Origin: Bradyrhizobium amphicarpaeae | GTDB lineage: Bacteria > Pseudomonadota > Alphaproteobacteria > Rhizobiales > Xanthobacteraceae | Length of the DNA stretch: 64,000 bases | Assembly (NCBI RefSeq): GCF_002266435.3 | Contig: NZ_CP029426.2 | Location: forward strand, 5,610,001-5,674,000 | Reading direction: 5' to 3' | In this document: positions 25,083-27,674 of the stretch, piece by piece | Numbering within the stretch: position 1 is the stretch's first letter | How the letters are laid out: each line of letters begins with the position of its first letter | The notes under the pieces: model-generated | Told to the model about the DNA's origin: nothing | The model's input: only the letters and a program-made list of their open reading frames with translations | Databases searched by the model: none | Translations under genes and position numbers: made by a program

Positions 25083-27674
25083 ATGATTCGCATGACAGAG
25101 CCAAGCAAAATCACGACCCAGACCGTCCCCGATCACCAGCCTGCAGCCGGCGGCATCGCCGCGCGTGCGCGCGCCTCGGTGGGCCCGAAATATCTCTCCG
25201 GGCTCAATCCGGAGCAGCGCGAGGCCGTGGAGACGCTGGATGGCCCGGTCCTGGTGCTGGCCGGTGCCGGCACCGGCAAGACGCGCGTGCTGACCACGCG
25301 GATCGCCCATATCCTGAGCCAGGGCCGCGCCCGCCCCGCCGAGATCCTGTCGGTGACCTTCACCAACAAGGCCGCGCGCGAGATGAAGCACCGCCTCGGC
25401 CAGATGCTCGGTCACGCCGTCGAGGGCATGCCGTGGCTCGGCACCTTCCATTCCATCGGCGGCCGTATCCTGCGGGCCCATGCCGAGCTGGCACAGCTCA
25501 AATCGAACTTCACCGTGCTCGACACCGACGACCAGGTGCGGCTGCTGAAGCAGTTGCTGCAGGCCGACAACATCGACGACAAGCGCTGGCCGGCACGCAT
25601 GCTCGCCGGCCTGATCGACGGCTGGAAGAACCGCGGCCTGACGCCGTCGCAGGTGCCGGCCGGAGAAGCCGCGATCTTTGCCAACGGCAAGGGCGGCAAG
25701 CTCTATGCGAGTTATCAGGAGCGGCTGAAGATCTTGAACGCGGCCGATTTCGGCGACCTGCTGCTCGAGGACATCCGCATCTTCCGTGAGCACCCGGATA
25801 TTCTGCGGCAGTACCAGCAGCGCTTCAAATTCATCCTGGTCGACGAATATCAGGACACCAACGTCGCGCAATATCTGTGGCTGCGGCTGCTGTCGCAGGC
25901 GCCGTCGTCCAGTTCGTCATTGCCGGGCCTGACCCGGCCATCCATCAACTCTTCGCAAGATGGATCACCGGGTCTGGACGCTTCGCGTCGGCCCGGTGAC
26001 GACGAGCAAGATCATGCGACGCCCGTCGCCGCCGGCGAAAAGCCCCACGTCAAGAACATCTGCTGCGTCGGCGACGACGACCAGTCGATCTATGGCTGGC
26101 GCGGTGCCGAGGTCGACAACATCCTGCGCTTCGACCACGATTTCCCCGGCGCCAAGGTCATTCGCCTCGAGCGCAACTACCGCTCGACCGGCCACATCCT
26201 CGCCGCCGCATCGCATCTGATCGCGCACAATGAAGGCCGGCTCGGCAAGACGCTACGCACCGAGGACCAGGACGGTGAGAAGGTCACCGTGACGGGCTCG
26301 TGGGATTCGGAAGAGGAAGCGCGCGGCATCGGCGAGGAGATCGAGCAGATCCAGCGCAAGGGCGAGAAGCTCAACGAGGTCGCCATTCTCGTGCGCGCCT
26401 CCTACCAGATGCGCGAGTTCGAAGACCGCTTCGTCACGCTCGGCCTGCCCTACCGCGTCATCGGCGGCCCCCGCTTCTACGAGCGCGCCGAAATCCGCGA
26501 CGCGCTGGCTTACTTGCGCGTCATCAATTCGCCGGCCGACGACCTCGCCTTCGAGCGCATCGTCAACGTGCCCAAGCGTGGCCTCGGCGATGCCACCGTG
26601 CAGATGCTGCACGACCACGCCCGCAAACGCCGCATTCCCTTGTTCGAGGCGGCGCGCGCGGTGATCGAGACCGACGAGCTGAAGCCGAAGGCGCGCGGGT
26701 CCTTGCGCGACGTCGTCACCCAGTTCGACCGCTGGCGCGCCCAGCGCGAGGTCACCGCCCACACCGACCTCGCCCAGATCGTGCTCGACGAGAGCGGCTA
26801 TACCGAGATGTGGCAGAAGGACCGTTCGGCCGACGCCGCGGGCCGGCTGGAGAACCTGAAAGAGCTGGTGCGCTCGATGGAGGAATTCGAGAACCTGCAA
26901 GGGTTCCTCGAACACATCTCGCTGGTGATGGACCGCGACAGCGGTGCCGACGAAGACGCGGTGTCGCTGATGACGCTGCATTCGGCCAAGGGGCTCGAAT
27001 TCGACAACGTATTTTTGCCCGGCTGGGAGGAAGGCCTGTTCCCGAGCCAGCGCACGCTGGACGAACAGGGCCGCGCCGGGCTGGAAGAGGAGCGCAGGCT
27101 CGGCCATGTCGGCCTGACGCGCGCCCGCCGCCGCGCCATGATCTATTTCGCCACCAACCGCCGCATCCACGGCACCTGGTCGACCACGATCCCGTCGCGC
27201 TTCCTCGACGAGTTGCCGGCGGCCAATGTCGAGATCACCGAATCCAAGGGCGGCTCGGCCTGGGGCGGCACCGGCGGCTACGGCGCCTCGCGCTTCGACG
27301 ACATGGAGGCGTTCGGCTCGACCTATTCGACGCCGGGCTGGCAGCGCGCCCAAGCCAACCGCAACCGGGGCGGCGGCCGCAATGGCGGCGGCGGAAGCGG
27401 GGGCTTCGAGGAAGAGGCCGCAACGTTCTCCTCGTCGTCACCAGGCCCTGATTTCGGCAGCTTCTCCCCGCGCCGGCGCGGACCGCTGACGATCGAGGGC
27501 GAACTGGTCGCCAAATCGACCGGCACGACCTCGGACTTCTCGCTGTCCGACCGTGTCTTCCACCAGAAGTTCGGTTACGGACACGTCACGAAGATCGACG
27601 GCAACAAGCTCACGATCCATTTCGACAAGGCCGGCGAGAAGAAGGTCGTGGACAGTTTCGTGCAGCGGGCGTGA
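25083..27674 (+). CDS. UvrD/PcrA-type ATP-dependent DNA helicase with repeat-derived insert
   Basis: SF1A helicase, 863 residues from the ATG at 25083 (an ATG at 25092 is an alternative). Motifs in order: Walker A LAGAGTGKTRVL near 60, VTFTNKAAREMKHR, GTFHSIGGRILR, DEAD-like LVDEYQDTN near 253, VGDDDQSIYGWRGAE near 329, LERNYRST, LMTLHSAKGLEFDNVFLPGWEEG and HVGLTRARRR. The end carries a PcrA-like KFGYGHVTKIDGNKLTIHFD after a Gly/Ser-rich linker. It unwinds DNA in repair and at blocked forks. Unusual: about 40 residues (roughly 275-318) are inserted between motif II and motif III. They are encoded by a palindromic repeat (25915-26003) and its flanks, read in frame with no stop. Confidence 0.93.
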   Translation: MIRMTEPSKITTQTVPDHQPAAGGIAARARASVGPKYLSGLNPEQREAVETLDGPVLVLAGAGTGKTRVLTTRIAHILSQGRARPAEILSVTFTNKAAREMKHRLGQMLGHAVEGMPWLGTFHSIGGRILRAHAELAQLKSNFTVLDTDDQVRLLKQLLQADNIDDKRWPARMLAGLIDGWKNRGLTPSQVPAGEAAIFANGKGGKLYASYQERLKILNAADFGDLLLEDIRIFREHPDILRQYQQRFKFILVDEYQDTNVAQYLWLRLLSQAPSSSSSLPGLTRPSINSSQDGSPGLDASRRPGDDEQDHATPVAAGEKPHVKNICCVGDDDQSIYGWRGAEVDNILRFDHDFPGAKVIRLERNYRSTGHILAAASHLIAHNEGRLGKTLRTEDQDGEKVTVTGSWDSEEEARGIGEEIEQIQRKGEKLNEVAILVRASYQMREFEDRFVTLGLPYRVIGGPRFYERAEIRDALAYLRVINSPADDLAFERIVNVPKRGLGDATVQMLHDHARKRRIPLFEAARAVIETDELKPKARGSLRDVVTQFDRWRAQREVTAHTDLAQIVLDESGYTEMWQKDRSADAAGRLENLKELVRSMEEFENLQGFLEHISLVMDRDSGADEDAVSLMTLHSAKGLEFDNVFLPGWEEGLFPSQRTLDEQGRAGLEEERRLGHVGLTRARRRAMIYFATNRRIHGTWSTTIPSRFLDELPAANVEITESKGGSAWGGTGGYGASRFDDMEAFGSTYSTPGWQRAQANRNRGGGRNGGGGSGGFEEEAATFSSSSPGPDFGSFSPRRRGPLTIEGELVAKSTGTTSDFSLSDRVFHQKFGYGHVTKIDGNKLTIHFDKAGEKKVVDSFVQRA
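25915..26003. repeat. Palindromic repeat element embedded in helicase gene
   Basis: The outer arms start CGTCATTGCCGGGCCTGACC and end GGCCCGGTGACGACG. Inside them CCATCCATC pairs imperfectly with GATGGATCA around a short centre. The design (CGTCAT, CCGGGTC, mirrored) is that of dispersed Bradyrhizobium intergenic repeats such as the element at 62921-63022. Here it lies inside an essential-type helicase gene and is translated as a Ser/Pro/Gly/Asp-rich loop. Confidence 0.75.

Follow-up and report, generated by a model that had tools for sequence, protein, structure and literature searches.

Short palindromic repeats that lie within bacterial genes have been described before. In the available sections of PMC3733652, CGTC- and GTAG-tagged repetitive extragenic palindromes (REPs) are short palindromes that are mostly intergenic, and some of them lie in frame in genes, including many repair genes. 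The CGTC type is found mainly in Alphaproteobacteria, including Bradyrhizobium and Rhodopseudomonas. The same sections list a "UvrD/REP helicase" among the proteins with in-gene REPs and describe different REPs near one recB site in two Xanthomonas species. Rickettsia palindromic elements (RPEs) are in-frame palindromes in conserved proteins, with ten families (available parts of PMC3767692, PMC2229807, and PMC10969869). For the sites of RPE-4, -6, and -7, the accessible text of PMC3767692 debates a hotspot against a common origin and leans to the latter. The small variable segments treated in the accessible part of PMC2884548 are strain-specific DNA, many of them in genes with the frame intact, for which hotspots of illegitimate recombination were proposed. 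Here, we analyzed a stretch of 64,000 nucleotides from Bradyrhizobium amphicarpaeae (NZ_CP029426.2, positions 5,610,001 to 5,674,000; hereafter, the window), in which a uvrD/pcrA helicase gene carries a palindromic repeat in a loop between helicase motifs II and III. Comparison of this site among relatives indicates that, in the family of Bradyrhizobium, Rhodopseudomonas, and Afipia, the loop is probably a hotspot that is overwritten by unrelated dispersed palindromic repeats.

The start of the uvrD gene (Table 1) follows from the database entry for the window's protein, which has 863 residues; the longest open reading frame (ORF) around it in the ORF list is 24927-27674 (915 aa). The protein is a member of the UvrD/PcrA superfamily 1A, with PF00580 in the N-terminal part, PF13361 in the C-terminal part, and both motifs II and III. 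It matched E. coli UvrD with an E-value of 1e-159 (phmmer), and the best solved matches of its model in Foldseek were UvrD and PcrA (3lfu, 42% identity). In the HMMER alignment, E. coli UvrD has just 5 residues (238-242) opposite the 51-codon loop of the window protein. The initial annotation had estimated the insert at about 40 residues, which is shorter than the measured value of about 51. Its statement that the segment is in frame and stop-free was borne out, because all 51 codons are open. The segment is probably part of the mature protein, judging from the open frame.

A first AlphaFold2 model, built from a shallow alignment, had a mean predicted local distance difference test (pLDDT) score of 45.5 and was set aside; a deeper alignment of 40 rows was used instead and gave a mean pLDDT of 77.7. 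In this model, residues 278-319 have pLDDT values below 50 and are placed between a helix (261-271) and a strand (325-330). The loop between motifs II and III is therefore predicted to be disordered; the initial annotation had proposed a surface loop. In the UvrD fold, this position is remote from where ATP and DNA are bound. The pLDDT is also below 50 in the C-terminal linker (residues 723-756 and 761-814), which served as an internal control.

Table 1. Positions of the features discussed in the text, in window coordinates unless a genome position is given
Feature	Position	Strand	Remarks
uvrD/pcrA gene	25083..27674	+	863 aa; PF00580 + PF13361
Helicase motif II, VDEYQDT	25839..25859	+	
Extra loop, 51 codons (APSSSSSLPGLTRPSINSSQDGSPGLDASRRPGDDEQDHATPVAAGEKPHV)	25899..26051	+	between motifs II and III
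Type A palindromic repeat dimer	25915..26004	+	left arm 25915-25937; inverted right tag 25992-26004
Helicase motif III, GDDDQSIYGWRG	26070..26105	+	
Gly/Ser-rich C-terminal linker of UvrD	27249..27524	+	internal control; low confidence in model, repeat-free
CGTCAT...GATGAC palindrome	62921..63022	+	same plan as uvrD repeat, different sequence
Dispersed type C repeat, comparison copy	22090..22200	+	G000:C1:5632090-5632200; 71% to type C query
Peptide ABC transporter ATPase, in-frame interdomain-linker repeat (VMAGLDPAIHHTAQDQSQSMGPRVKPGGDE)	G000:C1:6798923-6800689		window's genome, L006

The palindromic repeat was found where the initial annotation had placed its core. Its left arm on the forward strand, CGTCATTGCCGGGCCTGACCCGG, occurs nowhere else in the window when up to 3 mismatches are allowed, and no match was obtained in 100 shuffles. 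The mirrored tag CGTCGTCACCGGG lies on the reverse strand and has 1 mismatch to a looser tag pattern, which gives position only (5 matches in the window against 2.9 expected; 14 of 100 shuffles reach 5). The predicted folding energy of the repeat is −63.6 kcal/mol, compared with a shuffle mean of −40.2 kcal/mol (z −6.5; none of 200 shuffles equal). When up to 2 mismatches are allowed, the left arm (23 nt) is matched 66 times in the whole genome, 16 of them exactly (own copy counted), and the reversed control has no match. For a 146-nt query containing the repeat, 40 of 133 candidates were scored, which yielded at least 40 significant matches. The core is not unique in the genome, and its proposed nature as a dispersed repeat holds. 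Among the 40 scored matches, no complete second copy of the 90-bp dimer was found, since the other 39 cover the left part of the query and reach position 78 of 146 at most.

These properties place the element near two described classes. The tag CGTCATTGCCGGG at 25915, with its inverted partner forming a dimer, and the high dispersed copy number of the left arm are those of CGTC-tagged REPs. The location of an in-frame palindrome within a conserved protein is that of RPEs. The Y1 transposase of REPs mobilized by REP-associated tyrosine transposases (RAYTs) was not found: PF01797, which we take to include the RAYTs, had no match in the window's genome, while the control search was positive in 5 of 14 named genomes. 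The palindrome at 62921-63022, which had been cited as an intergenic repeat with the same mirrored CGTCAT plan, does share that plan, but neither sequence identity nor family; it was not among the 40 scored matches of the 146-nt query. It is of the same general class as the uvrD repeat and of a different family. As to the element in uvrD and its class, the initial annotation was right.

To compare the loop among relatives, 220 uvrD loci from 42 genus codes of the window's family were collected. Matches were obtained in 288 of 296 family genomes, and part of them were read, mostly the best-scoring rows of an insert-bearing query, together with 30 lower-scoring, hand-picked genomes that are the source of the empty sites. 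Ten loci were kept apart from the 220: L061, L062, L063, and L084 are second copies, L220 is short, and L118, L130, L237, L241, and L252 were unscored. The loop is filled in 206 loci and empty in 14, which is not an estimate of prevalence, as the sample is biased to filled sites. Eight peptide types were distinguished among 173 of the fillings (26 of type A, 55 of B, 52 of C, 20 of D, 10 of E, 5 of F, 4 of G, and 1 of H); a further 3 hold several repeats in tandem, and 30 are untyped. Types were set by peptide patterns with manual assignment of some rows, and a few labels may be wrong. The patterns are SLPGLTRQSI..DGSPGLDASRRPGDD for type A, to which the filling in the window belongs, VIPGRxExANPES..DSGF..HRPGMT for type B, TSPRLRGEVGSQSDPGEGDSP..PHPDPLPASGERE for type C, LRDAALRAAPQDEG..PHPEERGQSPRVSKGEA for type D, and LPSPLAGEGAEPRSGEAGEG..PPSPARGEG for type E. 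Filled loops are 20-228 residues long, and the longest, in L239, contains at least three consecutive repeats. No in-frame stop was found between motifs II and III in the 220 loci (L135 has Ns in the loop); outside this count are the loci without an intact reading of the region, namely L118 (frame change), L241 (Ns), and L130, L237, and L252 (contig ends).

Typed fillings occur in 27 genus codes, and 13 of these show two or more types. In a Bradyrhizobium sample that was not chosen by the insert, 58 of 60 genomes were read and all were filled, 57 with a typed and one with an untyped filling (L042); the two unread genomes have a frame change (G027) and only distant matches (G035). The suggestion of the initial annotation that the site accepts a mobile palindrome was correct as to the presence of repeats and understated as to their history, because the insertion is not one-off and different repeat families occupy the site in different species.

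Several observations on individual fillings should be mentioned. The frame change in G027, a single-contig genome, lies inside a type C filling (L118) and is either a sequencing error in the palindrome or a real uvrD mutant. An acidic motif (SLEDTWDEP, DLADTF, and variants) occurs in the middle of fillings of different repeat types in L174, L175, L177, L178, L193, L241 (g74), L131 (g60), and L197 (g71), and could have been left over from an earlier insert or could be a short motif with a function. The peptide DDDIPFDIHPDD, with the forms DDIPFDIHPDD and DVPFDVHPDD, recurs in the inserts of L185, L236 (g85), and L150 (g57). DDDIPF presumably resembles the acidic C-terminal tip of SSB, although it is internal in these UvrD inserts. 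Relatives with either a full type E filling or a short filling like two fused arms were found in L155/L230 (g60) and L164/L171/L235 (g80), which suggests palindrome collapse as a route by which fillings shrink. One repeat peptide was seen elsewhere in UvrD, in an N-terminal stretch of L251 that is probably upstream of the true start. In the window, seed matches mark further candidates for dispersed repeats resembling types C and D at 22090-22200, 31584-31709, and 33521-33530; the first of these has seeds at 22092, 22105, and 22181.

The fillings have the properties of repeats. Exact seeds that represent three repeat superfamilies occur in 167 of 206 inserts of at least 30 nt and in 28 of 4,120 shuffled inserts; these seeds were picked after the inserts had been seen, and the independent tests are folding and dispersed copies. 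The median z of folding is −4.9 to −6.7 for types A-E and 0.0 for the 30 untyped fillings (mononucleotide shuffles). The untyped fillings are on the whole not palindromic, which is consistent with eroded repeats. Dispersed copies were found in host genomes for type B (G018, G042, and G000, the window's genome), type C (G017, G049, and G000), and type D (G335, G126, and G000), with 25-85 matches per genome; 40 candidates were scored, and both strands were counted, so that one palindrome may count twice. For the B query from the uvrD gene of G018, a copy with 98% identity lies in G042 on a contig other than that of the G042 uvrD gene.

The inserts of the different types were compared with each other by blastn (word 7, E 1e-4). 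Type D has no match in any other type; for type A, matches were obtained in 1 of 1,352 pairs with C and in 35 of 1,430 pairs with B. Matches between B and C (89 of 2,860 pairs) are presumed to be shared remnants like those of the pair L060/L096 described below. B and G match in 154 of 220 pairs, C and F in 179 of 260, and C and E in 101 of 468. Therefore, the eight peptide types correspond to about four DNA groups: A; B and G; C, E, and F; and D. The possibility that one ancestral insertion diverged in place into apparent types, which the accessible text of PMC3767692 favored for Rickettsia, is very improbable here. A and B do share the CGTCAT...ATGACG plan and B matches G often, but the isolation of D, the single A-C match, the near-identical B copy outside uvrD in G042, and the existence of hybrids and tandems of two families all speak for separate origins. 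For types B, C, and D, a common origin of all fillings was rejected on the basis of the dispersed copies and the blastn comparison.

In the other families sampled, the site is empty, apart from three loci given below. All 40 genomes examined from other families of the order match as two aligned pieces with at most 24 nt between them, as read from the match coordinates. These relatives outside the family lack the insert, and no single conserved insert is common to the relatives. Among 80 named loci from Alphaproteobacteria to Firmicutes, 71 were readable by pattern and 9 were not; the distance from motif II to motif III is 40-46 residues in 64 of the 71, and four others that carry repeats, L351-L354, are members of the family. 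At the same site, L384 (Rhizobium alarense), L397, and L406, which are outside the family, have 29-41 extra residues with no recognized repeat. Some genera within the family also have an empty site.

The turnover of the fillings was examined on a tree of the protein sequence on either side of the loop, which itself was excluded. At least 105 changes are needed for all states together, at least 81 when the tree is restricted to the 173 typed rows, and at least 61 when the types are merged into three superfamilies. Filled and empty states account for 4 changes, and returns to empty number 0 or 2 depending on ties. As reconstructed on this tree, type changes are shown to be far more frequent than losses. 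Sixteen listed pairs have different fillings at 94.5-97.7% identity of the flanking DNA (1,155 nt), such as L060 (C) and L096 (B), and unrelated repeats can thus be borne by flanks that are 97.7% identical. Within Bradyrhizobium (78 typed rows), 26-29 changes were counted, against label-shuffle means of 32.6-32.7 and minima of 26-28 (50 shuffles), and the type, to judge by these sequence comparisons, is almost unlinked to the flank tree.

The junctions retain traces of replacement. L060 and L096 have 44 nt of the loop in common from its 5' edge, ending with the start of a B repeat, GTCATTCCGGG; beyond this point, the B repeat goes on in L096, and a C repeat follows in L060. In L147 and L142, 30 nt of a C arm are shared, followed by E in L147 and C in L142. 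In L220, the opening nucleotides of an A repeat are followed by F, and in L110, L116, and L214 the start of a C-type arm directly precedes a B/G-type arm. These hybrid junctions suggest that a new repeat was copied into an old one. In a comparison of 16 pairs with different fillings, some of them hand-chosen, only 5-8 nt of the loop are shared at the 5' edge in 10 and only 0-7 nt at the 3' edge in 12. Such sharp-edged pairs show that nearly the whole loop was replaced between conserved edges.

The loop of UvrD is the strongest site seen, and it is not the sole one. The protein searches detect relatives that have exact 5-residue words in common with the query. At this sensitivity, all hits of the type A peptide were UvrD proteins (110 of 110 hits of 503-1601 aa and 4 of 4 hits of 165-525 aa). 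The 60 hits of the type C peptide comprise 48 UvrD, 6 peptide ABC-ATPase, 2 UvrC, 2 RlmN-like, 1 MutS, and 1 PBP1C proteins. The RlmN-like (radical SAM) proteins are presumably such from our own reading of PF04055/PF21016, and several of the other names were likewise taken from Pfam numbers. For the peptide ABC-ATPase, 30 genus loci that topped the ranking by a C-bearing query were taken, and 28 were read. The interdomain linker contains a type C repeat in 15 of these and the peptide VMAGLDPAIH...PRVKPGGDE in the other 13. L304 retains KPGGDE after a C repeat, and L317-L319 retain SPRA/SPRT before the other type, so hybrids occur in this gene as well. The ABC-ATPase of the window's genome (L006) bears the VMAGLDPAIH...PRVKPGGDE type and is among the matches of the 146-nt uvrD query. 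An A-like repeat is read in another frame at the ABC-ATPase site, so the repeat itself does not fix the frame. For type B, both strands give similar peptides. In the UvrC loop, clear repeat peptides were seen in 4 of 29 loci read of 30 (L321, L322, L324, and L340), and L325 is doubtful.

The best-supported reading of these comparisons is that dispersed palindromes insert into the loop, are read through, erode, and give way to unrelated repeats. Palindromes cause deletion and template switching. The process would be one to which palindromes are prone, such as hairpin-provoked deletion and template switching, or the entry of a new palindrome into a repeat that is already there. Selection would retain only open, hydrophilic, disordered surface loops. 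A resident palindrome would favor further turnover, so that the site would stay occupied, and the inserted peptide is probably close to neutral. A stronger form of this proposal is that the loop is a self-perpetuating landing pad: a first palindrome makes a tolerant loop prone to breaks or stalls, later repeats from other places in the genome are copied in by template switching at the hairpin, and the site, overwritten throughout the life of the lineage, becomes a generator of random disordered protein sequence. We put this forward tentatively, as the less likely outcome. If it is true, such landing pads would be present in repair and transport proteins (UvrD, UvrC, MutS, and peptide ABC-ATPases).

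Several points weigh against overwriting by unrelated repeats. The process is inferred from comparison, and no insertion was watched. Searches of host genomes covered types B, C, and D of the eight. Eight of the 167 seeded inserts carry seeds of two superfamilies, of which the second seed in L093 and L100 lies in C-rich filler and may be there by chance. In the C-terminal linker of UvrD, no repeat peptide was found in the 100 loci where the linker could be delimited, and since this low-confidence region is repeat-free, disorder or tolerance alone is insufficient to explain the choice of site. The ratio of nonsynonymous to synonymous differences per site (pN/pS) was calculated for 22 non-overlapping pairs of the same type, with equal length and an insert identity of at least 75%, a choice that lowers both insert values. 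It is 0.117/0.180 = 0.65 in the insert and 0.013/0.269 = 0.050 in the flank; the excess over the flank speaks for overwriting, and the insert value below 1 counts against it. In some loops, a short similar peptide is kept across repeat types, which is a hint of function. In single checked copies of types A-E, 2-4 of the six frames are open, yet each type has one frame at uvrD, a pattern that might reflect site-specific insertion rather than selection. As the peptide defines the type, however, copies read in other frames would be counted among the 30 untyped fillings, of which 1 is strongly palindromic. Finally, exchange of loop alleles by homologous recombination could explain part of the changes.

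This last process, in which alleles are swapped between species through the conserved flanks and few new insertions are needed, would account for the near-random distribution of types on the Bradyrhizobium flank tree, and the flanks are conserved enough to recombine. Nevertheless, we consider it rather unlikely as the general explanation, because the hybrids point to changes within the loop. In addition, a tree of the nearest 150 nt of flank on each side in Bradyrhizobium has 29 changes, no fewer than the 28 of a tree of the flank at 300-600 nt, and this comparison gave no sign of imported tracts, although short trees are noisy and the test is weak. An enzyme that mobilizes repeats into uvrD and a few other genes is a still less likely explanation. 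It would fit the sharp edges, the single frame per type, and the unhit C-terminal linker, but purifying selection on the flanks would produce sharp edges as well, several unrelated families occupy the site, and the window's genome has no match to the Y1 transposase.

It is also doubtful, to a greater degree, that the loop is a selected functional linker or interaction arm for which the repeats are mere raw material. The site is almost never emptied once filled, the insert pN/pS is 0.65, and short motifs are common to several types in some genera; against this, no motif shared across the family was seen, the insert pN/pS is about 13 times the flank value, and filled loops range in length from 20 to 228 residues. 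Removal of the segment by RNA excision or ribosome bypassing is scarcely credible. The mRNA hairpin would be very stable (−63.6 kcal/mol), and the insert of L118 contains a frame change in a single-contig genome; bypassing, however, would not need open frames, and none of the 220 loci has a stop between the motifs. Serial overwriting by dispersed palindromes thus probably remains the account that best describes the UvrD loop.

The comparison with known systems defines what is added here. The structures of E. coli UvrD and PcrA (3lfu, 2is1, and 1pjr) have the same fold and motifs as the window protein, and the difference lies at the loop, with 5 residues in E. coli UvrD and about 51 in the window. 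The remark in the initial annotation that an in-gene repeat of this helicase had no description was overstated in view of the UvrD/REP helicase named in the accessible sections of PMC3733652. In those sections, other genes of the same category are hit at different sites, whereas several repeat families, including hybrid and tandem fillings, occur at the one UvrD site across 27 genus codes; another gene behaves alike. The variable segments in the accessible part of PMC2884548 are not linked to one protein loop that repeatedly draws palindromes. In the open-licence literature searched, we found no description of serial overwriting of one protein loop by many repeat families. In-gene palindromes and UvrD as their host were already known, and the serial overwriting of a single loop is the new part. 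The site may serve as a natural experiment, with many replicates, on how non-coding repeats become protein, what reading frames and compositions a protein can accept, and how one palindrome gives way to another. It is also a warning for annotation, because repeat-derived peptides such as PHPDPLPASGERE can occur within real, conserved proteins. Compared with the RPEs, the organisms are different, and types B, C, and D of UvrD are dispersed in genomes, which argues for different origins. The question of old shared insertions or a repeatedly used hotspot was left open for Rickettsia in the accessible text of PMC3767692; for UvrD, the comparison gives fillings of different origin, in one loop and at high frequency.

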